NCBI GenBank assembly: GCA_018003315.1
Contig: JAGNEJ010000017.1
Coordinates: 1 to 63,856 of the forward strand
DNA: 63,856 bases
Reading direction: 5' to 3'
DNA from: Verrucomicrobiales bacterium
GTDB lineage: Bacteria; Verrucomicrobiota; Verrucomicrobiia; Verrucomicrobiales; V1-33
Part shown: positions 47,624 to 63,856 of the stretch, one piece after another
Numbering within the stretch: the first letter of the stretch is position 1
How the letters are laid out: each line of letters starts with the position of its first letter
The notes under the pieces: generated by a model
The model's input: the letters and a program-made list of their open reading frames with translations, nothing else
Databases searched by the model: none
Told to the model about the DNA's origin: nothing
Translations under genes and position numbers: made by a program

Positions 47624-48328
47624 ATGTCCTACTATATCAGCCGAAATGGTCAGCCGCAGGAGGGGCCGTATTCCGAAGGGGATCTGCAGCGCATGCTCTC
47701 GGCCGGGCAACTGTCATCAAGCGATTTCGCGTGGAAGGAAGGCCAGGCGAACTGGGAGCCGCTGCACCGGCTGTTTCCGTATTTTGTGGGGCCGGCGATG
47801 CTGCGTCCGGAGGCGCTCGCTCCCCAGGCCGGGGACGGCACTCTGGCCAGCCGGGGCGTGCGGCTGGGAGCGGCGCTGCTCGACGGTTTTTTCCAGCTTC
47901 TGGCCTTTGCGCCCATCATGGCTGGCCTTCCCGCATGGATCGAAGCCATTGAAAATTCCCCGGAATCCTTGGAGCCCGGCAACAACGGAGCCGCGCTGCA
48001 GCTGCTTCTGGAAAACCTGCCCCCCTGGTCGCTGGTCGCCACGGGAGTGCTCGTGATCGGGCTGTTGGGGCTGAACATTTTCCTGCTGACCACCCGCGGG
48101 CAAAGTCTGGCAAAAATGCTCTGCCGCATCCGCATTGTGCGATTTCCCGGCGGGCAGCCGCCCGGGTTCGTCAAAGCGTGGCTGCTGCGCTCCTTTGTGC
48201 CGTATCTGCTGACCAATATTCCGATTGTCGGCGGCATGTTCGGCCTGGCGGATGCGCTGTTCATTTTCTCGAAGGACAAACGCTGCGTCCACGACCACAT
48301 CGCCGGCACCAAGGTGGTCAGGTGCTGA
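47624..48328 (+). CDS. GYF_2 / RDD domain membrane protein
   Basis: 234 residues. The N-terminal GYF_2 domain ([36 protein letters not shown]; about 1-50) is followed by an RDD domain with three hydrophobic helices, starting [20 protein letters not shown] and ending [12 protein letters not shown]. The pairing is common in Verrucomicrobia and Planctomycetes. Function unknown; the GYF part may bind proline-rich peptides. It is 34 bp before the sbcD-like gene and could be co-transcribed. Confidence 0.9.
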
Positions 48329-48362
48329 GTTTGCCGATCCCGTCCACACTGCTGCGCACTGC

Positions 48363-49538
48363 ATGACCGCACGCTTTCTCCACACCGCCGACTGGCAATT
48401 GGGCAAGCCCTTTGCGGGAGTGGCCGACGAGCAGAAGCGCGCCCTGCTGCGGCAGCAGCGTTTCGATGCGGTGCGGCGCATGGGCGAGGTGGTGCGGGAA
48501 ACCGGAGCAGCCTTTGTGGTGGTAGCGGGGGATTTGTTTGATTCCCCCACCCCGGACAAGGCCACCGTGTCTGCCGCGTGCAGCGCCATCGGGTCCCTGG
48601 GCGTGCCAGTGTATGCGATTCCCGGAAACCATGACCACGGCGGGGCCGGGAGCCTGTGGGAACAGGAATTTTTCCGCAGGGAACAGGCGGCGCTTGCGCC
48701 CAATTTTCGCATCCTGCTGGAGGCAAAGCCGGTGGACGCTCCAGGGGCGGTGCTTTTTCCCTGTCCGCTGCTGCGGCGGCATGAAGCGGCTGATCCCACA
48801 GCCTGGCTGCGGTCGGCGGCGGACTGGAATGCCCTGGCTGGTGACAAGCCTCGCATTGTGCTGGCGCACGGAAGCGTGCAGCAGTTCGGAACGCCGCTGG
48901 CGGACGAGGAGGAAGGCGAGGCGGCTGGGAGCAATCTGCTGGATCTGAAACGGCTGGAGATGGCAGAGCTGGACTATCTGGCGCTGGGCGACTGGCATGG
49001 GACCAAACAGGTTGAACCCAAAGCCTGGTATTCCGGCACCCCGGAACTGGACCGATTTGTGAAAGGGGAAGATCACCGCCCAGGTCAAGTGCTGGCGGTG
49101 GAGGCGGCGCGCAGTCGTCCGCCACAGGTGCGGGAAATTCGCACGGCGGCGGTGGGCTGGCATGCGCTTTCCTTCCGCCTGGCAGAAGCTGCCGATGTGC
49201 CGCGGCTGCAGCAGATGGTGGAAACAGCCATCGGCACCAGGGTCAACGGAGATTTGATGCGGCTGGAATTGTCAGGGTCGCTGGACCTCGCGGCCGCTGC
49301 GGAACTGGAACAGATGCTGGAAGCGTGGACGGCCCGTTTGCTGCGGGTCAAACTGATCAATCAAACCGTGCTTGCCCCGTCGGAGGCGGAACTGGAAAGC
49401 TTGACCCGGCACCCCGGAGCCCCGCTCATTTCCCGGGTGGCCGGGCGGCTGTCGGAACTGGCATTAAGCAGCGGGGAAACAGCGGCCGTGGCCAGGCTGG
49501 CACTGCGGGAGCTGCATGCAGCCGCCGTCAAACCCTGA
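48363..49538 (+). CDS. SbcD/Mre11-like DNA repair nuclease
   Basis: 391-residue calcineurin-like metallophosphoesterase. Metal motifs are in order: FLHTADWQLG (Asp, with His before), VVAGDLFD, PGNHDHGG, LAHGS and LGDWHG. It matches YhaO/SbcD-type subunits that pair with an SMC-like ATPase and process DNA ends. The C-terminal capping region includes the partner-binding helices. It lies 12 bp before the ATPase gene, which confirms the pair. Confidence 0.92.
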   Translation: MTARFLHTADWQLGKPFAGVADEQKRALLRQQRFDAVRRMGEVVRETGAAFVVVAGDLFDSPTPDKATVSAACSAIGSLGVPVYAIPGNHDHGGAGSLWEQEFFRREQAALAPNFRILLEAKPVDAPGAVLFPCPLLRRHEAADPTAWLRSAADWNALAGDKPRIVLAHGSVQQFGTPLADEEEGEAAGSNLLDLKRLEMAELDYLALGDWHGTKQVEPKAWYSGTPELDRFVKGEDHRPGQVLAVEAARSRPPQVREIRTAAVGWHALSFRLAEAADVPRLQQMVETAIGTRVNGDLMRLELSGSLDLAAAAELEQMLEAWTARLLRVKLINQTVLAPSEAELESLTRHPGAPLISRVAGRLSELALSSGETAAVARLALRELHAAAVKP

Positions 49539-49550
49539 CCAAACAGTGCG

Positions 49551-52268
49551 ATGCGCATCACCTCACTGACCGTCCGCAACTACCGGCTCCACCGGGAACG
49601 AACCGTGGAGTTCGATCCGGAACGCACCGTCATTGGCGGGTCAAATGAGTCCGGCAAAAGCACCCTGGCGGAAGCGCTGCACCGCGGGCTTTTTTTGAAG
49701 TCACGGGTGGCCGGTGAGGTCCAGAAATCCATGGTTTCCATGATCCACCCCGGTCACCCCGAGGTGGAGGTGCGGTTTCATGCCAATGGTCGGGATTTCC
49801 TGGTGAGAAAGCGCTTCAGCGGAGGCAGCGGCACCACCACCTTGACGGAAACAGGCGGCCAGTCCCTGCAAAACGAGGCGGCGGACACCCGGCTTTCGGA
49901 ACTGCTGGGCGTGGAGTGCCAGGCTGGAGGAAGGAGCGTGGCCAACCAGTTGATCCAGCAGTGGGCACATTTATGGGTGTGGCAGGGAAGCGCCGGGAAT
50001 GATCCCGCAGAACACGCCACCGCCCAGTGCACCGGACTTCTGCAGCGCCTGCAGAGCCTCGGCGGCGCTGCGGTCCTGCAATCGGAATTGGATGCGCGGG
50101 TGGCGCAGCAGTTTGCTGAAGAGAAAGCGGACATTTTCACCAGCACAGACAAGCCGAAGGCCGGTTCTGCACTTTCCCTGAAAGAGTCCGCCCGGGAAGA
50201 AGCCCAGAAAACGATGGAAGCGGCGCAGGACCGCCTGACAAAACAGTGGAAAAACGTGGAGGAGTTCGAACGCGCCACGAAAACAATCACCGCCGCCACC
50301 GCGGATCTGGCCGGGCTGAAGCAGCAGCAGGAGGCGCTGGAGCAAAAGCTGGCCGATCTCGACCGACTGCGCCGCGACGAGGAGCGGCAGATTCAGACCG
50401 ACCAGAACGCTGCAAAAACGCTGGAGGAACTGCGCCAGGTGGAGGAGAAACTAGCCGATCTGATTTCACAGTCGAAGCAACTGCGCCAGAAACTGCAGCC
50501 GGAACAGGAGAAACTGCAGCGGCTGGAATCGGATCTCGCCGGGGCCAGGGAAACCGCCGCCGCAGCGAACCAGCATCTGGATGCCGCCGTGGCGGAAAGC
50601 CGCCGGGGCCGACTGCGACGGGATTTGGCTGCTTCCCTGACTACCCAGCAGGATAAGGATGCACGCCTGGGCGAGCTGCAGCAGCGGGCCGGGGAAGTCA
50701 GGGGATTGGAGGAACAGATGCAGGGCCTGCGCGCCGAACTGGCCCGGCTGCCGGTAGTGGACAGGAAAATGCTGCAAAATATTCAGACCTTGGAAAATGC
50801 CGCCGCGCAGGCGGAGGCAGCCCAGCAGGCCATGGCGGCCAGCATTGCGGTGACTGCCGCCGGACTGGAGATCACATTGGACGGACAGCCGCTCAAAGCG
50901 GGGGAATCCAGGACCGTGGTGAACCCTGCGGAGCTGGCGGTGGGTGACGGCGTGCGGCTGCGGATCACTCCCGGCGGCGGCGAGGGCCTGCAGCAGGCCA
51001 GGGTCCGCGTGCAGGAAACCCGGCAGCAACTGCGGATGGCGTTGGATGCCGCGGGCATTCACACGGCAGCCGAAGCCGCAGACATTTTCGCCCGGCGGGA
51101 GGACCTTTCCCATCGCGGCACCGCCCTGGAAGCGAGGCTCAAGGGACTGGGAGCCCAACGGCTGGCAGCGGAATTGCAGTCAGCTGCGGAAGCCGCAACC
51201 GCTGCACAGGCAGAAGTTTCCCGGCGGCTCGCCCAGATTGAAGAAGCGCCGGGCGCAGACTCGCTGCCGACGGCAGACCGGCTCAAGGAACTGCAGGAGG
51301 CAGTCGAATTGTTGGAAGAAACGGAACGCAAAGCCAGAGGGCAGCGCGACTACGGACAGGCTGCGGCCACCCAGATTGAAAATTCCGTGCATGCCCAGCG
51401 TCAGGCCGTTGACCAGTGGAATCGCGAGAGCACCGAACTTGCGGCCCGGATGCGGGTGCTGCTGGAAACGCACGGAGAGGAATCCGCCAGGAAAGAACGC
51501 CTTTGCGCCGCGGAACGGGCAGCGGCCACTGCCACAGAGACCCTCGCGCAGACGCGGCGGACGATCACCGCGCTGGGGCCAGAGCAACTGGATGCCGACA
51601 AGGCGCGGCTGCAGCGCGCGGAGACACAGGCTGCGAATACAAAACGCGACGCCGAACTCGCCCGCGGCGTGACGGAGAGCACCCTGCGCTCGGACGGCAC
51701 CAGCGATCCGGCAGCCGAAGCCGCGCTGGCCGATGCCCGATGGAAGGCCGCCGTGGAAGCCTGGGAGGCGGAAAACCGACACGCAGAAGCAGTGCGCCTG
51801 CTGGACCGTTTGTTCACGGAGGAGCAGCAGACGCTGGCCGAGGAATTCACCCGCCCGTTTGCGGAGCGGATTTCCGGTTACCTGCGCTGCCTCTTTGGTC
51901 CCGGTGCCAGGGCCGCGGTGCGCCTGGCAGACAATGCCTTTTCCGGAGTGGAACTGATCCGCCCAGGGGAAACGGGCGGTGCCGCAGTTCCCTTCGACAG
52001 CCTGAGCGGCGGTGCCCGGGAACAGGTGGCGGCAGCCGTGCGGCTGGCCATGGCCGAAGTACTGGCCGCGGACCATGGCGGATGCCTCCCGGTGGTCTTC
52101 GACGATGCCTTTGCCTACTCCGATCCTGACCGGGTCGGCCTGCTGCAGCGCATGCTCGACTTCGCCGCCAGCCGCGGGCTCCAGGTCATCGTCCTCACCT
52201 GCAACCCCTCCGACTATGCAGGTCTGGGAGCAAAGTTCGTCTCCCTGAATGTCCAGGACCCACTCTGA
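49551..52268 (+). CDS. SbcC/YhaN-like SMC ATPase without a zinc hook
   Basis: 905 residues. Walker A GGSNESGKST (29-38), long coiled coils (about 210-425 and 480-790), the ABC signature LSGGAREQ (near 818) and a Walker B with Asp-Asp (PVVFDDAF, 851-852) in place of Asp-Glu. The apex lacks the CxxC zinc hook of Rad50/SbcC. Instead there is a short beta-rich insertion (about 430-475, SIAVTAAGLEITLDGQPLKAG, then VGDGVRLRI). This fits the YhaN-type branch. With the nuclease just upstream it should form a DNA end-processing complex. Confidence 0.9.
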   Translation: MRITSLTVRNYRLHRERTVEFDPERTVIGGSNESGKSTLAEALHRGLFLKSRVAGEVQKSMVSMIHPGHPEVEVRFHANGRDFLVRKRFSGGSGTTTLTETGGQSLQNEAADTRLSELLGVECQAGGRSVANQLIQQWAHLWVWQGSAGNDPAEHATAQCTGLLQRLQSLGGAAVLQSELDARVAQQFAEEKADIFTSTDKPKAGSALSLKESAREEAQKTMEAAQDRLTKQWKNVEEFERATKTITAATADLAGLKQQQEALEQKLADLDRLRRDEERQIQTDQNAAKTLEELRQVEEKLADLISQSKQLRQKLQPEQEKLQRLESDLAGARETAAAANQHLDAAVAESRRGRLRRDLAASLTTQQDKDARLGELQQRAGEVRGLEEQMQGLRAELARLPVVDRKMLQNIQTLENAAAQAEAAQQAMAASIAVTAAGLEITLDGQPLKAGESRTVVNPAELAVGDGVRLRITPGGGEGLQQARVRVQETRQQLRMALDAAGIHTAAEAADIFARREDLSHRGTALEARLKGLGAQRLAAELQSAAEAATAAQAEVSRRLAQIEEAPGADSLPTADRLKELQEAVELLEETERKARGQRDYGQAAATQIENSVHAQRQAVDQWNRESTELAARMRVLLETHGEESARKERLCAAERAAATATETLAQTRRTITALGPEQLDADKARLQRAETQAANTKRDAELARGVTESTLRSDGTSDPAAEAALADARWKAAVEAWEAENRHAEAVRLLDRLFTEEQQTLAEEFTRPFAERISGYLRCLFGPGARAAVRLADNAFSGVELIRPGETGGAAVPFDSLSGGAREQVAAAVRLAMAEVLAADHGGCLPVVFDDAFAYSDPDRVGLLQRMLDFAASRGLQVIVLTCNPSDYAGLGAKFVSLNVQDPL

Positions 52269-52365: not shown

Positions 52366-52409
52366 TTGAATTTGCACGAAAACTAGAGCATTTGCACAAG
52401 AGCAAATGC
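52366..52409 (+). promoter_or_regulatory. Candidate LexA operator
   Basis: A perfect 8-bp inverted repeat GCATTTGC-N6-GCAAATGC at 52388-52409 ends 5 nt before the lexA ATG (52415). A further TTTGCAC half site lies upstream near 52371-52377. Placement suggests autoregulation. No match to TGTTC-N4-GAACA, the motif I recall for Verrucomicrobium, was found here. Confidence 0.6.
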
Positions 52410-52414
52410 ACAAC

Positions 52415-53032
52415 ATGACCCAACGTCAAACTGCCGTGCTGGAATTTCTCCAGGAATTCCTGGCAGAACACGGCCATGCGCCAACGGAGCGCGAAATCCA
52501 GCAGGGCATGGGATTCAGCAGCCCCACGCTGGCCCGCCATTACCTCGCCGCGCTGGAAAGGCACGGCGTCATCACCCGCCGTGCCGGCAAAGCCCGCGGG
52601 GTCACGCTGCCCGGCACGCATCCGGCGGCGCTGCTGTCGATTCCCGTTTTCGGAAGCATTCCTGCCGGCCTTCCCGAGGAACAGGGGCAGGCGGCGGAAG
52701 GCTGCATTACGGTCGATGCGGACACGCTGCACCTGCCGCGCAATGTCCGCACCTTTGCCCTGCGGGTGCGCGGCGATTCCATGACCGGTGCGAACATCGT
52801 GGACGGCGACAGCATCATTCTCGAATTCCGCGACCCGAAGCACGGCGACATCGTGGCCGCGCTCATCGACGGTGAAACCACGCTCAAGCGCTACCTCGTC
52901 CAGCGGGGTCGGCCGTATCTGCGGGCGGAGAATCCAAAGTATCCGGACCTGATCCCGGCGCAGGAACTGGTGGTGCAGGGCGTCATGGTGGCGCTCCTGC
53001 GGGTGCCGCGGACAGGGAAGCGTCCGGACTAA
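52415..53032 (+). CDS. lexA: LexA-type SOS repressor
   Basis: 205 residues from the ATG at 52415. Another ATG at 52406 lies inside the operator and is less likely. The winged-HTH (PTEREIQQGMGFSSPTLARHYLAALERHGVI) is followed by the S24 peptidase domain: Ala84-Gly85 cleavage site in SIPAGLPEE, nucleophile Ser122 in RGDSMTGANI and general base Lys158 in TTLKRYL. It represses DNA-damage genes until RecA triggers self-cleavage. The next gene, the fused polymerase, begins 12 bp after its stop, so both should be induced together. Confidence 0.95.
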   Translation: MTQRQTAVLEFLQEFLAEHGHAPTEREIQQGMGFSSPTLARHYLAALERHGVITRRAGKARGVTLPGTHPAALLSIPVFGSIPAGLPEEQGQAAEGCITVDADTLHLPRNVRTFALRVRGDSMTGANIVDGDSIILEFRDPKHGDIVAALIDGETTLKRYLVQRGRPYLRAENPKYPDLIPAQELVVQGVMVALLRVPRTGKRPD

Positions 53033-53044
53033 CTTTCCCGTTCC

Positions 53045-56000
53045 ATGCTGCTCCACCTGGATGCGGACGCCTTTTTCGCCGCCGTGGAACAGGCGGCGGA
53101 CGCCCGGCTGCGCGGGCGACCCGTCGCGGTGGGCGGGGAATCCCGCGGAGTGGTTAGTTCCGCCAGTTACGAGGCCCGCGCCTTTGGCATCACCGCGGCC
53201 ATGCCCACAGCCCAGGCGCGGAGGCTGTGCCCGAAACTCGTGGTTCTGCCGCCGAATTTTGAACTCTACGAACTTTTCAGCCGGCGCATGTTTTCCTATG
53301 CGCATGACTTCACGCCGCTGGTGGAGGTGGGCTCCATCGACGAAGGCTATCTCGACTTGTCAGGGTGCCGGGGAAAATCACCGGGGGAAATCGGGCGCAT
53401 CATCCGCCGCGCCATCAGCCAGGGCATGAAAATCACCGTATCCGAGGGTATCGGAAGCAGCAAGCTGGTGTCCCAGATTGCCAGCAAAGTGGGCAAGCCC
53501 GCGGGATTTGTGGAAGTGCGGCCGGGATGCGAGTGCGCCTTTCTGCATCCGCTGGCGGTGAAGTGGCTGCCGGGCGTGGGACCGAAACTGGAAGCGGCAT
53601 TCCGCACTGCCGGACTGGTGAAAATCGCCCATGTGGCCGCAATGCCGCTGCACCTGCTGGCTCTGCTTGCGGGAAGCGCCGCACCGCAAATCCACGCCTT
53701 TGCCCGCGGCGAGGACAGCCGCCCGGTGGTGCCGGACCCGCCCGCCGCGAAAAGCTATGGCATGCAGGAGACGTTTGCCCAGGATGTGACCGAGGAGGCC
53801 TGGCTGATCGCCAAACTGCGCACCATGGCCGATGCGCTGATGGCGCGGGTGCGCAGCGATGCCCGGGCCATCCGCACCGTTGCCCTGCGGCTGCGCTACA
53901 ACGACATGGGCGAATGCACGCGCAGCGAGAGCCTGAGCGAACCGACAGACCTGGAACACCTGGTTTACCCGCTGCTGCCGCGGCTGCTTTCCCGGGCCTG
54001 GGAGCGGCGCGTGAGCGTGCGCCTGCTCTCGCTGCGCTTCTCCCAGGTCTATCACGGAGGATTCATGCGGGAACTGCCGCTGGACGGACTGGCCGTGGCG
54101 GACGAACGCCGGCACCGGCTGGCCTGCACGGTGGATGCGCTGCGCAGCGCCCGCCTTCCCATCATGCGCGGACATGACCTCTGGCTGGAGCGCCGCGGAG
54201 GCGCGCCGCGGTCGGCGCTCAAGGCGGAAGACGCCGCGCCTCCCGCCGCCGTGCGCCATGACGACGGACATTCCCTGACAAGCCGCGTTCTCAGGGAACG
54301 CCCGAAATCCTTCACCGTCACCGCGCGTTCCGTTGCGTCAGGGACCTTCGCCGCACTCAACGTGCGCAGCTGCTACAGCTTTCTGGACTCCCTGCTGAGC
54401 ATTCCGGTCATCATCGAAACCGCCCTGGCCCGCGGGTGTTCCGCGGTGGCCCTAACCGATCCGAACCTGCATGCCGCAGTGCCGTTTTACCAGGCGGCAA
54501 AAGCGGCCGGGCTGCACCCCGTGATCGGTGCGGAACTGTGCTGCGATGGAAAACCCGTGCTCTGCTACGTGGAAAATGCCGCCGGTTACGCCAATCTCTG
54601 CCGCCTGCTCTCCCTGCGCAGCGGCGCAAAAGTCACTACCAAAGAACTGCACGACCACTGCACCGGGCTGCTCCTGCCCGGTGCGGAGGCGGCCCTGCCA
54701 GAAATCCGCCATGCGAATTCCGGCGACCGCCTGCGCTATGATATTGTGCAGAGCATTCGCACGCTGACTCTGCTGCGCGAGCGGCACCCGCAAAAGCGCC
54801 GCGGAGATTTCCACTGGCCGCACGAGGCGGAACTGCGCGGGCGCTATCGCGAGGAAAGCCTGCGCGCCGCGGTGGAAATTGCGGAACGCTGCCGGTTCGA
54901 TTTTGATTTCCAGACCCTGCGCTTTCCCGGCTTCACTCCGCCGGACGGCAGCGCCCCGTCCGCCCTGCTCCGCCGCCTGGCTGAGGAAGGGCTGGCGCGC
55001 CGCTACGGCCCGCGGGCGGAAAATCACCGCGCCCAGCTCAACGAGGAGCTGGCCCTCATCGGCGAAGTCGCCTACGAAGAGTATTTCCTAACCGTATGGG
55101 ATCTCCTCCAGGAATGCAGGCGGCGCGGCATCCACTGGATCACCCGCGGCAGCGCGGCGGATTCGCTGGTCTGCTACTGTCTGGAAATCTCCGGCGTGTG
55201 CCCGGTGCGCTTCGACCTCTATTTCCGCCGCTTCTTGAACCGCGACCGGATGGCTCTGCAAAAGCTTCCGGACATCGACGTGGATTTCGCGCATGACCGC
55301 AAGGACGAAGTGGTGAAGTTGATCCTGGAACGCTACGGACCGGAGCACTCCGCCATCGTGGGGGGCTTCAACACCTTCCATGCGCGCAGTGCCGTGGCGG
55401 AAGTGGCCAAGGTGCTGGGCGTCGCGGACCACGACATCCGCACCCTGACCAAACACCTGCCCCATTCGCTGAGTGCATGGCTGCCGCAAACCCTCACCGC
55501 AAAGCCGCATCCCACCATGGATTTCCCGGTGCAGGAGGAACCCTATCGCACCGCCCTGGCCACCGCTGTTTTTCTGGACGGCTTTCCGCGCTACGCCAAG
55601 ATGCACCCGTGCGGCGTGCTGGTTTCGCGCGATCCCATCCACAGCCTGACGCCCACGTTTGTTTCGCAAAAAGGCTGGCCGACCGCCCACTTTGACATGG
55701 ATGCCGTGGAGGCCGTGGGGCTCATCAAGCTGGACATTCTCGCCCAGGGCGGACTGGCGGTCATCCGCGACACCCTGGCCCTGCTCGCGGAACGCGGCAT
55801 CCGTCCGGACCTTGAAAAACTGGAGCCGTGGCAGGATGCCGGCGTCTGGGAAATGGTCTCCACCGGCCAGAGCCGCGGGGTGCACCACATCGAAAGCCCG
55901 GCCATGCTGACGCTGGCCCGCATGTGCCGCGTGCGGGACATTGACGTGCTCATCGCCATTGTCAGCGTCATCCGCCCCGGTGCGGCTAACAATCTCAAAA

Positions 56001-57265
56001 AACGGCAGTTTTCCCGCCGCGCACAGGGACTGGAACCCGCGGAATACGCGCACTCCTCGCTGGAACCCGTGCTGCGCAGCACCTTTGGCGTCATTGCCTA
56101 CGAGGAACACATCCTGCAAATCTGCGAGGCGTTTGCCGGACTCAATGGCGGACGCGCCGACATGCTCCGCCGCGCCCTGGTGAAGCAGGACGCACGGAAA
56201 ATCGAGACCCTTGAAGAGGAATTCACCCGCTCCGCACTGGCAAATGGGCGCGCCGAGGAAGATGTCAGGAACGTCTGGCGGCTGGTCGCCGGATTCCAGG
56301 GCTATGCCTTCTGTCGCGCCCATTCCACCGCGTACGGCGTGGAGGCCTACCAGGGCGCCTTCCTCAAGTGCCATCACGCCCCGGAATTTCTCGCCGCGGT
56401 GCTCAGCAACGGAAAGGGTTTTTACTCGCCGCTGGCCTACACGCTGGAATGCCGCCGGCTGGGCATGGGCTTCCGCCTGCCGTGCGTCAATGCCTCCCGC
56501 ACCGGCTATCAGGTGGAATTCGATGCCGGCCAGCCGGTGCTCCGCGTGCCGCTGCGCGCGGTCAAGGACCTGACCGAAGCCATGCTTTCCCGCCATGAAG
56601 CGCAGCGGGCCTGCCGCCCCTTCACCTCGCTGGCAGATTTCGTGCAGCGCGTCTGCCCCGCCCCTGCGGAAATGCTCACGCTCATCCGGGCCGGGGCATT
56701 CGATTCCTTTGGCGATCCGCGTCCGGTCCAGTTCTGGCAGGCCCGCAGTCTCGGTTGCTGGCCGCCGGGAGAAGCCGCGCTGTTTCCCGCACCCGATGCC
56801 GTCACCGGCCTGCCTGCCAACCTCGCCCCGCCGGACCGCATCGCCCTGCTGCGCGATGAACAGGAACTGTTCGGCTTCACTGTTTCCGGCCACCCGCTGG
56901 ACCTTTACACTGGCATCGCCTGGGAAACCTACTGCCCGGCTGCGCGCCTGGCGCAATTTCCCAACCAGCGCGTCGCCGTCTGCGGCCTGATCGTGGAGGA
57001 ACGGCTCCACCGGCAGTCGAACGGAGAACTCATGGAATTCATCACCCTGTGCGACCACACCGGCTTCATCGAATGCGAAATCTTCGCCCGGGCCTGGGCC
57101 CGCTGGGGGCTGGCCACCGTGCGCTGGCCCGTGGTGGAAGTGGAAGCCGTCGTCACCCCGTTCGAAAACGCCAACGGTTTCACCCTGACCGTGCAGCGCA
57201 TCGTCAAACCGCGGAAATCCCGCACCGTGGGCACCCGGAAGCAAACACAAGGCGGACACTCCTGA
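53045..57265 (+). CDS. Fusion of a Y-family (DinB-like) polymerase and a DnaE2-like C-family polymerase
   Basis: One uninterrupted 1406-codon frame. Residues 1-345 form a complete DinB-type polymerase: HLDADAFFAAVE (Asp6), the YEARAFG arginine, GSIDEGYLDLSG (Asp99, Glu100), a helix-hairpin-helix region and a little-finger domain. Residues 381-434 are a linker. From 435 it is DnaE-like: a PHP domain with degenerate metal ligands (NVRSCYSF, ALTDPN), palm motifs PDIDVDF (Asp743/745) and IKLDILAQ (Asp897), fingers, HhH (1193-1225) and OB fold (1305-1375). Both polymerase active sites look intact. Other bacteria encode ImuB and DnaE2 separately. It follows lexA and so is probably SOS-induced for translesion synthesis. 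No imuA is next to it. Confidence 0.93.
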   Translation: MLLHLDADAFFAAVEQAADARLRGRPVAVGGESRGVVSSASYEARAFGITAAMPTAQARRLCPKLVVLPPNFELYELFSRRMFSYAHDFTPLVEVGSIDEGYLDLSGCRGKSPGEIGRIIRRAISQGMKITVSEGIGSSKLVSQIASKVGKPAGFVEVRPGCECAFLHPLAVKWLPGVGPKLEAAFRTAGLVKIAHVAAMPLHLLALLAGSAAPQIHAFARGEDSRPVVPDPPAAKSYGMQETFAQDVTEEAWLIAKLRTMADALMARVRSDARAIRTVALRLRYNDMGECTRSESLSEPTDLEHLVYPLLPRLLSRAWERRVSVRLLSLRFSQVYHGGFMRELPLDGLAVADERRHRLACTVDALRSARLPIMRGHDLWLERRGGAPRSALKAEDAAPPAAVRHDDGHSLTSRVLRERPKSFTVTARSVASGTFAALNVRSCYSFLDSLLSIPVIIETALARGCSAVALTDPNLHAAVPFYQAAKAAGLHPVIGAELCCDGKPVLCYVENAAGYANLCRLLSLRSGAKVTTKELHDHCTGLLLPGAEAALPEIRHANSGDRLRYDIVQSIRTLTLLRERHPQKRRGDFHWPHEAELRGRYREESLRAAVEIAERCRFDFDFQTLRFPGFTPPDGSAPSALLRRLAEEGLARRYGPRAENHRAQLNEELALIGEVAYEEYFLTVWDLLQECRRRGIHWITRGSAADSLVCYCLEISGVCPVRFDLYFRRFLNRDRMALQKLPDIDVDFAHDRKDEVVKLILERYGPEHSAIVGGFNTFHARSAVAEVAKVLGVADHDIRTLTKHLPHSLSAWLPQTLTAKPHPTMDFPVQEEPYRTALATAVFLDGFPRYAKMHPCGVLVSRDPIHSLTPTFVSQKGWPTAHFDMDAVEAVGLIKLDILAQGGLAVIRDTLALLAERGIRPDLEKLEPWQDAGVWEMVSTGQSRGVHHIESPAMLTLARMCRVRDIDVLIAIVSVIRPGAANNLKKRQFSRRAQGLEPAEYAHSSLEPVLRSTFGVIAYEEHILQICEAFAGLNGGRADMLRRALVKQDARKIETLEEEFTRSALANGRAEEDVRNVWRLVAGFQGYAFCRAHSTAYGVEAYQGAFLKCHHAPEFLAAVLSNGKGFYSPLAYTLECRRLGMGFRLPCVNASRTGYQVEFDAGQPVLRVPLRAVKDLTEAMLSRHEAQRACRPFTSLADFVQRVCPAPAEMLTLIRAGAFDSFGDPRPVQFWQARSLGCWPPGEAALFPAPDAVTGLPANLAPPDRIALLRDEQELFGFTVSGHPLDLYTGIAWETYCPAARLAQFPNQRVAVCGLIVEERLHRQSNGELMEFITLCDHTGFIECEIFARAWARWGLATVRWPVVEVEAVVTPFENANGFTLTVQRIVKPRKSRTVGTRKQTQGGHS

Positions 57266-62915: not shown

Positions 62916-63856
62916 CTAACGTTTCAATTCCAGAATCTCCACCATGCCATTCATTGTCCCCAAAATCACAATTTCCCGCCCATCCACCCCTGCTCGGAGC
63001 GCCACTCCCATGACGGAAGACCCCGCGTGGTGCCAAGCGATGCATTTTCCCTTGTCCACGTCCCAGACGCGCAGGGTGTTGTCATCACTTCCCGAGATGG
63101 CGGTGCGCCCATCGGCACTGAGCGCCACGGACCTGACCCAGTCCGAGTGGCCCTCCAGGACGCGGGATCGCCCGGTGGCGAGGTCCCAGACGCGCAGGGT
63201 GTTGTCAGCACTTCCCGAGATGGCGGTGCGCCCATCGGCACTGAGCGCCACGGACCTGACCCAGTGCCAGTGGCCCTCCAGGACGCGGGATTGCCCGGTG
63301 GCGAGGTCCCAGACGCACAGGGTGTTGTCAAAACTTCCCGAGATGGCGGTGCGCCCATCGGCACTGAGCGCCACGGACATGACCCTGTTCGAGTGGCCCT
63401 CCAGGACGCGGGATTGCCCGGTGGCGAGGTCCCAGACGCGCAGGGTGTTGTCATCACTTCCCGAGATGGCGGTGCGCCCATCGGCACTGAGCGCCACGGA
63501 CGTGACCCCGTTCGAGTGGCCCTCCAGGACGCGGGATTGCCCGGTGGCGAGGTCCCAGACGCGCAGGGTTTTGTCAGCACTTCCCGAGATGGCGGTACGC
63601 CCATCGGCACTGAGCGCCACGGACCTGACCTCGTTCGAGTGGCCCTCCAGGACGCGGGATTGCCCGGTGGCGAGGTCCCAGACGCGCAGGGTTTTGTCAA
63701 CACTTCCCGAGATGGCGGTGCGCCCATCGGCACTGAGCGCCACGGACCTGACCTCGTTCGAGTGGCCCTCCAGGACGCGGGATTGCCCGGTGGCGAGGTC
63801 CCAGACGCACAGGGTTTTGTCAAAACTTCCCGAGATGGCGGTGCGCCCATCGGCAC
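62916..63856 (-). CDS. WD40 repeat protein with near-identical blades (5' end outside window)
   Basis: At least 313 residues; the frame is open to the right edge. Seven or so 41-residue WD40 repeats (VALSADGRTAISGS, TLRVWDLATGQSRVLEGHS) are almost identical, and the last blade (SVMGVALRAGVDGREIVIL, MVEILELKR) is diverged. Variation concentrates in a few positions around GS-x-D and HS-x-x-V-x-S, which map to a propeller's binding surface. An N-terminal effector domain, common in bacterial WD40 proteins, could lie outside the window. Confidence 0.9.
   Translation of the reverse strand, partial: ADGRTAISGSFDKTLCVWDLATGQSRVLEGHSNEVRSVALSADGRTAISGSVDKTLRVWDLATGQSRVLEGHSNEVRSVALSADGRTAISGSADKTLRVWDLATGQSRVLEGHSNGVTSVALSADGRTAISGSDDNTLRVWDLATGQSRVLEGHSNRVMSVALSADGRTAISGSFDNTLCVWDLATGQSRVLEGHWHWVRSVALSADGRTAISGSADNTLRVWDLATGRSRVLEGHSDWVRSVALSADGRTAISGSDDNTLRVWDVDKGKCIAWHHAGSSVMGVALRAGVDGREIVILGTMNGMVEILELKR
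63075..63856. repeat. Tandem 123-bp DNA repeat encoding WD40 blades
   Basis: Successive copies of a 123-bp unit (for example TCCCAGACG at 63184 and 63307) are nearly identical, with scattered substitutions and one or two amino-acid changes per copy. The array continues past the window edge. It is a protein-coding repeat, not a CRISPR. Confidence 0.9.

Follow-up and report, generated by a model that had tools for sequence, protein, structure and literature searches.

The first 63,856 nucleotides of contig JAGNEJ010000017.1 (assembly GCA_018003315.1, Verrucomicrobiales bacterium, V1-33), analysed here on the forward strand and referred to as the window, carry at 53045-57265 (+) a single stop-free frame of 1406 codons that encodes a Y-family and a C-family DNA polymerase in one polypeptide. 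By alignment, both polymerase active sites are intact in this fusion protein, and its occurrence in relatives indicates that it is a conserved family in many Verrucomicrobia-type bacteria and not an assembly accident. We favour, at a probability of about 0.6, the reading that the fusion is an SOS-induced, RecA-linked, single-chain form of the predicted DnaE2B-PolY-RecA mutasome, because of the single frame, the kept catalytic acids, the conservation of the fusion, a RecA-NT-like motif, a degenerate PHP domain and the linkage to lexA or S24 genes. The features of the gene are as follows.

53045-57265 (+): fused Y-family/C-family DNA polymerase, 1406 amino acids (frame, Pfam, intact relatives)
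53045-54049 (+): DinB-type Y-family polymerase, residues 1-335 (Pfam IMS and IMS_C; PDB alignment to Pol IV)
54071-54088 (+): degenerate sequence resembling a beta-clamp motif, ELPLDG, residues 343-348 (position matches the clamp-type motifs of unfused relatives)
54113-54175 (+): RecA-NT-like motif, residues 357-377, HRLACTVDALRSARLPIMRGH (fixed-register ranking; alignment with the tails of Bacteroidota PolYs)
54188-54355 (+): variable linker, residues about 382-437 (no invariant residue, no in-frame ATG)
54356-54844 (+): degenerate, shortened PHP domain, residues 438-600 (Pfam PHP; motif loss and a large internal deletion)
54845-57262 (+): DnaE2B-like C-family polymerase (palm, fingers, helix-hairpin-helix and C-terminal region), residues 601-1406 (Pfam, trees, PDB alignment)

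Two polymerases in one frame

Pfam searches assigned IMS (residues 5-148) and IMS_C (236-335) to the N-terminal part of the protein, and PHP (438-525), DNA_pol3_alpha (641-900), DNA_pol3_finger (904-1068) and HHH_6 (1143-1226) to the C-terminal part. Among solved structures, the N-terminal half matched DNA polymerase IV (Pol IV; best E 7.9e-51) and the C-terminal half matched the alpha subunit of polymerase III (pol III alpha) of Thermus and E. coli; profile scores of the Y-half were far higher for DinB-type models (PRK03348 and others) than for UmuC. In the PDB alignment to solved Pol IV chains, Asp6, Asp99 and Glu100 fall on the catalytic acids and Phe11 on the steric-gate position; Asp743, Asp745 and Asp897 align with the acids of PDIDTDF and LLKMDF in Thermus pol III alpha. 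Across 31 aligned fusion proteins, no substitution occurs at Asp99, Glu100, Asp743, Asp745 or Asp897, and Asp6 is kept in 30/30 of those that extend to that position; one copy outside this alignment (G442a) has Glu instead of Asp99. The preliminary description of this DNA had reported the 1406-codon frame, six catalytic positions and a stop-free linker of 55 residues joining the two polymerases: the frame and the linker are borne out by the uninterrupted sequence, and the six positions are correct by alignment to Pol IV and Thermus pol III alpha.

In replicative DnaE, the metal site of the PHP domain gives proofreading. The PHP domain of the fusion has LNVRS and TDP where the DnaE1 of the same genome has LHLHT and TDHG, and a long internal stretch is deleted in the window's protein, more distant fusions retaining more of it. 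In its unconserved PHP active site the fusion resembles DnaE2 in general.

Distribution and descent of the fusion

Homologues were searched in samples of the phylum (388 genomes), the order (387) and the class (384), and in the family of one hit. At E <= 1e-115, 35 of the 387 order genomes and 61 of the 384 class genomes gave a match. Both polymerase parts lie in one open frame in 41/384 class genomes, from 24 families, and in 37 genomes of this sample one frame spans both query ends, give or take breaks in the BLAST matches. The window's own family (f1) has the fusion in 10 of the 13 genomes listed; no fusion from family f2 was present among the order-sample matches listed at the same threshold. 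The fusion gene of G295, a member of a further class, is broken across two contig ends. Five genomes (G389, G410, G440, G442 and G461) carry two copies each (loci L066-L069 and L071-L076), most of them with an upstream S24 gene of their own. Public records were covered by an exact-peptide contig scan, which reaches close relatives only; the records L033 (74% in the best segment) and L034 (51% identity) hold the fusion gene whole. A scan of viral contigs found no relative of the fusion, and the best plasmid matches listed are only adjacent separate polymerase genes.

The record L033 (CAMAUV010000007.1), labelled Akkermansia muciniphila, is apparently identical with a contig of genome G395. As G395 is placed in family f1, the label is doubtful and probably wrong.

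Since the assembly behind the window is a draft in 155 contigs, the single frame could be an assembly or sequencing artefact that joins two genes, and the preliminary description had named a missed stop or frameshift at the linker as the observation to fear and a count of homologues sharing both domains as a check. The 41 class genomes from 24 families supply these homologues, and their intact frames, together with those of L033 and L034, refute the artefact. In addition, linker indels among relatives preserve the frame, and the window differs from its closest relatives most often at third codon positions, linker included. The intact frames, the third-position differences and the compatible trees of the two halves described below make an assembly accident extremely improbable. 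The linker itself varies in length from 33 to 101 amino acids across the family, with no invariant position. Between residues 377 and 640 of the window's protein, the frame has no ATG; the inner GTG codons 403, 440 and 468 were considered as separate DnaE starts, and none was convincing.

In the tree of the C-terminal half, all fusions group with the unfused DnaE proteins of G004, G422 and G1171, from the same phylum, and this group joins the DnaE2B of Bacteroidota and Desulfosarcina at 100/99, while DnaE1 and the ImuB-partnered DnaE2A are placed elsewhere. These data indicate that the C-half belongs with the DnaE2B type and not with the DnaE1 or the ImuA-ImuB-DnaE2A type, on a tree that is small and midpoint-rooted and with the actinobacterial DnaE2B falling elsewhere in one tree. 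The earlier assignment of the C-half to DnaE2 has to be narrowed to a DnaE2B-like protein, as opposed to the DnaE2 that partners ImuB. The tree of the Y-half is less resolved than that of the C-half, but compatible with it, as a single origin of the fusion with later inheritance would predict.

Unfused arrangements are also found. Adjacent separate dinB and dnaE genes are present in Bacteroidota (Emticicia, Chryseobacterium and Adhaeribacter). In genus g302 of family f106 (L149 2828-7791, L150, L151 and L152), the halves are separate co-directional genes lying ∼500 base pairs (bp) apart, with an antisense crcB gene (fluoride channel family) in the gap. The best trees place this split form among the fusions; an ancestral-unfused position was not rejected by the approximately unbiased test (p 0.295 and 0.233). 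The tree position makes a secondary fission by gene insertion the more likely origin of the split. Both arrangements bear on the possibility that the two polymerases work independently, each on its own range of lesions or substrates, the fusion providing co-expression and stoichiometry with no hand-off of the primer end. The separate genes of g302, the separate, adjacent genes of Bacteroidota and the unconserved linker of 33-101 residues are consistent with such independence. However, the fusion is kept in nearly all surveyed lineages that have the gene, and a co-directional operon would already ensure co-expression, so that we consider this explanation unlikely.

Putative recruitment segments and the lexA neighbourhood

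Two short segments lie between the Y-half and the linker. When every position of the window's protein was scored in fixed register against the RecA N-terminus of the same genome, residues 357-377 ranked first of 1386 positions; in 21 fusion proteins, the window's included, the corresponding position ranked first in 19, second in one and thirteenth in one. In the alignment, the RecA-NT-like columns of the fusions match the tail regions of PolYs from Bacteroidota; these PolYs are part of a system for which a RecA-NT motif has been described (PMC6511836, PMC12926913). In mycobacterial ImuB, the RecA-NT is needed to bind the RecA homologue ImuA' (PMC11791113). The other segment, ELPLDG, lies where unfused relatives carry the clamp-type motifs QINLF, QMDLF, QIDLF and QLEMF, and is comparable with the clamp motif of ImuB, QLPLWG (PMC10421592), but without the Gln. 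The preliminary description had proposed that the fusion removes the need for ImuB-type recruitment; this proposal is not supported, as the Y-half keeps a RecA-NT-like segment and a degenerate clamp-like segment at the partner-recruiting places of ImuB.

Translesion cassettes usually encode ImuA, a catalytically inactive ImuB and DnaE2 as separate proteins that meet on the beta clamp. The Y-half of the fusion might likewise be mainly an ImuB-like adaptor that docks on RecA and the clamp, the DnaE half alone synthesising during bypass and the Y-site having a minor role. In the characterised ImuA-ImuB-DnaE2 system, the Y-family member indeed serves as a hub that is catalytically inactive and bears RecA-NT and clamp motifs (PMC10421592, PMC11791113), and the fusion has segments at the same places. 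A pure adaptor would, however, be expected to lose its catalytic acids, as ImuB has done, whereas the aligned fusions keep Asp6, Asp99 and Glu100 without exception (with Asp99 to Glu in the one extra copy), the IMS score is strong and Phe is retained at the steric-gate position. An adaptor role thus appears quite improbable to us.

Upstream of the fusion gene, two further features were identified.

52406-53032 (+): full-length lexA, with winged helix-turn-helix and S24 peptidase domains (TIGR00498, E 3.4e-43; Pfam)
52388-52409 (no strand): candidate operator where lexA starts, a perfect inverted repeat GCATTTGC-N6-GCAAATGC

The lexA gene, for which an inner ATG at 52415 is a possible alternative start, ends 12 bp before the fusion gene and is the only S24 match found in the window's genome. 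A lexA or S24 gene lies directly upstream of the fusion in most loci with upstream sequence. The window's genome also encodes separate DinB, DnaE1 and RecA proteins; in this genome (96% complete) an IMS search found only DinB and the fusion, and a RecA family search, with no dedicated ImuA model run, found only RecA. Directly upstream of lexA and in the same direction are SbcD- and SbcC-like nuclease genes (48225-52268, +), another DNA-repair pair.

In family f3 (L070 10037-10504 (-), L075, L077 and others), the gene at the place of lexA matches the S24 domain only: in the alignment, the DNA-binding part is missing, and the Ala-Gly cleavage site and the Ser/Lys pair are kept. Separate genes with a LexA DNA-binding domain are present elsewhere in f3 genomes. 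The f3 protein appears to be UmuD-like and derived from the LexA that is encoded at this place in relatives. Further upstream, a SRAP gene is commonly next in line in most f3 members; SRAP had no match in the window's genome.

Predicted action and relation to known mutasomes

In the reading that we favour, DNA damage would lead to LexA cleavage and to expression of the operon containing the fusion. The RecA-NT-like motif would dock the Y-half on RecA, in the manner shown for ImuB with ImuA' and modelled for other Y-family members, and the Y-half would insert opposite the lesion; the flexible linker would keep the non-proofreading DnaE half close, and this half would extend the distorted primer end. 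The fusion would hold the two polymerases at a 1:1 ratio and at high local concentration, and insertion followed by extension by one fusion molecule is plausible. The fusion itself is read directly from the frame, whereas the joint use of both active sites is inferred. In the sister family f3, the UmuD-like S24 protein may serve as an accessory subunit. A wider proposal, combining a RecA-docked single-chain inserter-extender with a LexA-derived, DNA-binding-free S24 protein that in one family independently turned into a UmuD-like regulator, is possible, and we put it forward tentatively.

Several observations weigh against the single-chain mutasome. Free local alignment of the window's own RecA-NT-like segment with RecA was no better than that of shuffles, and because this alignment is not significant the assignment rests on the fixed-register ranking across the family. 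The key Gln is missing from ELPLDG. The repeat at 52388-52409 is tentatively a LexA operator, and it was not seen in the promoter of the related L033; at a few loci (L078 and L083) no S24 gene adjoins the fusion. The separate halves of g302 indicate that covalent linkage is not always needed. Structure predictions of residues 1-640 and 431-1406 reached a mean predicted local distance difference test score of only 38-39, because just three sequences were usable as input, and were too poor to use.

A DnaE2B-PolY-RecA complex with separate genes has been predicted in Bacteroidota (Timinskas and Venclovas, NAR 2019 gkz198; Timinskas et al., NAR 2026 gkag133). Like this mutasome, the fusion combines a Y-family polymerase with intact catalytic acids and a RecA-NT-like motif with a DnaE2B-like polymerase in an SOS-type context; the IMS and RecA family searches of the window's genome gave no ImuA or ImuB, which that mutasome is without. 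However, the fusion is one chain where the mutasome has separate adjacent proteins, its PHP domain is shortened, its sequence at the clamp position is different and a lexA or UmuD-like gene is directly adjacent. With ImuA-ImuB-DnaE2 it would share a Y-family member tied to RecA or a RecA homologue, a non-replicative DnaE without PHP proofreading, and LexA control. In contrast to the Y-half of the fusion, ImuB is catalytically dead and carries an ImuB-C domain, and that system has a separate DnaE2A protein and needs ImuA; no such component was found here. The ImuB-C domain comprises about 80 residues (PMC3765255); Pfam gave no ImuB-C match in the fusion protein, which has just the unconserved linker of about 55 residues.

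The Y-family polymerase of Pol V is likewise active and bears a RecA-NT motif, and family f3 encodes a UmuD-like S24 protein directly upstream of the fusion; Pol V, however, is without a C-family polymerase, and the fusion differs from it in that the Y-half is of DinB type and the adjoining S24 protein is apparently LexA-derived. As proposed for the fusion, a Y-family inserter and an extender polymerase share the work in the eukaryotic Rev1-Pol zeta pair, but there the extender is of the B family, several subunits are involved and the evolutionary origin is unrelated.

No description of a Y-family/C-family fusion was found in the open-access literature, subscription papers and domain-architecture databases being outside the scope of the search, and the architecture may be visible in annotation though undiscussed. 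A 2026 survey of bacterial polymerases distinguishes 11 complex types, none of them a Y-family/C-family fusion, and applies the word 'fused' to DnaQ and YqjX-like domains only. The statement in the preliminary description that the architecture was undescribed therefore stands for the open-access literature, whereas the pairing of an active Y-family polymerase with DnaE2 had already been predicted (gkz198, gkag133). What is new is the fusion of both polymerases and not their pairing: it gives a mutation-generating enzyme an architecture that is new.

The fusion bears on how a Y-family protein and DnaE2 are combined in bacterial mutasomes and on which of the two crosses the lesion. Because it unites the two polymerases 1:1 in nature, with both sites intact by alignment, it could be purified as one polypeptide and tested by single and double active-site mutants, and matched unfused relatives are available in nature in the adjacent genes of Bacteroidota and in the split genus g302. 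The adjacent lexA or UmuD-like gene offers an example in which a damage repressor has apparently become a polymerase partner. Elsewhere in the window, near-identical WD40 repeats are present at 62916-63856 (-), in a run that continues past the window end.

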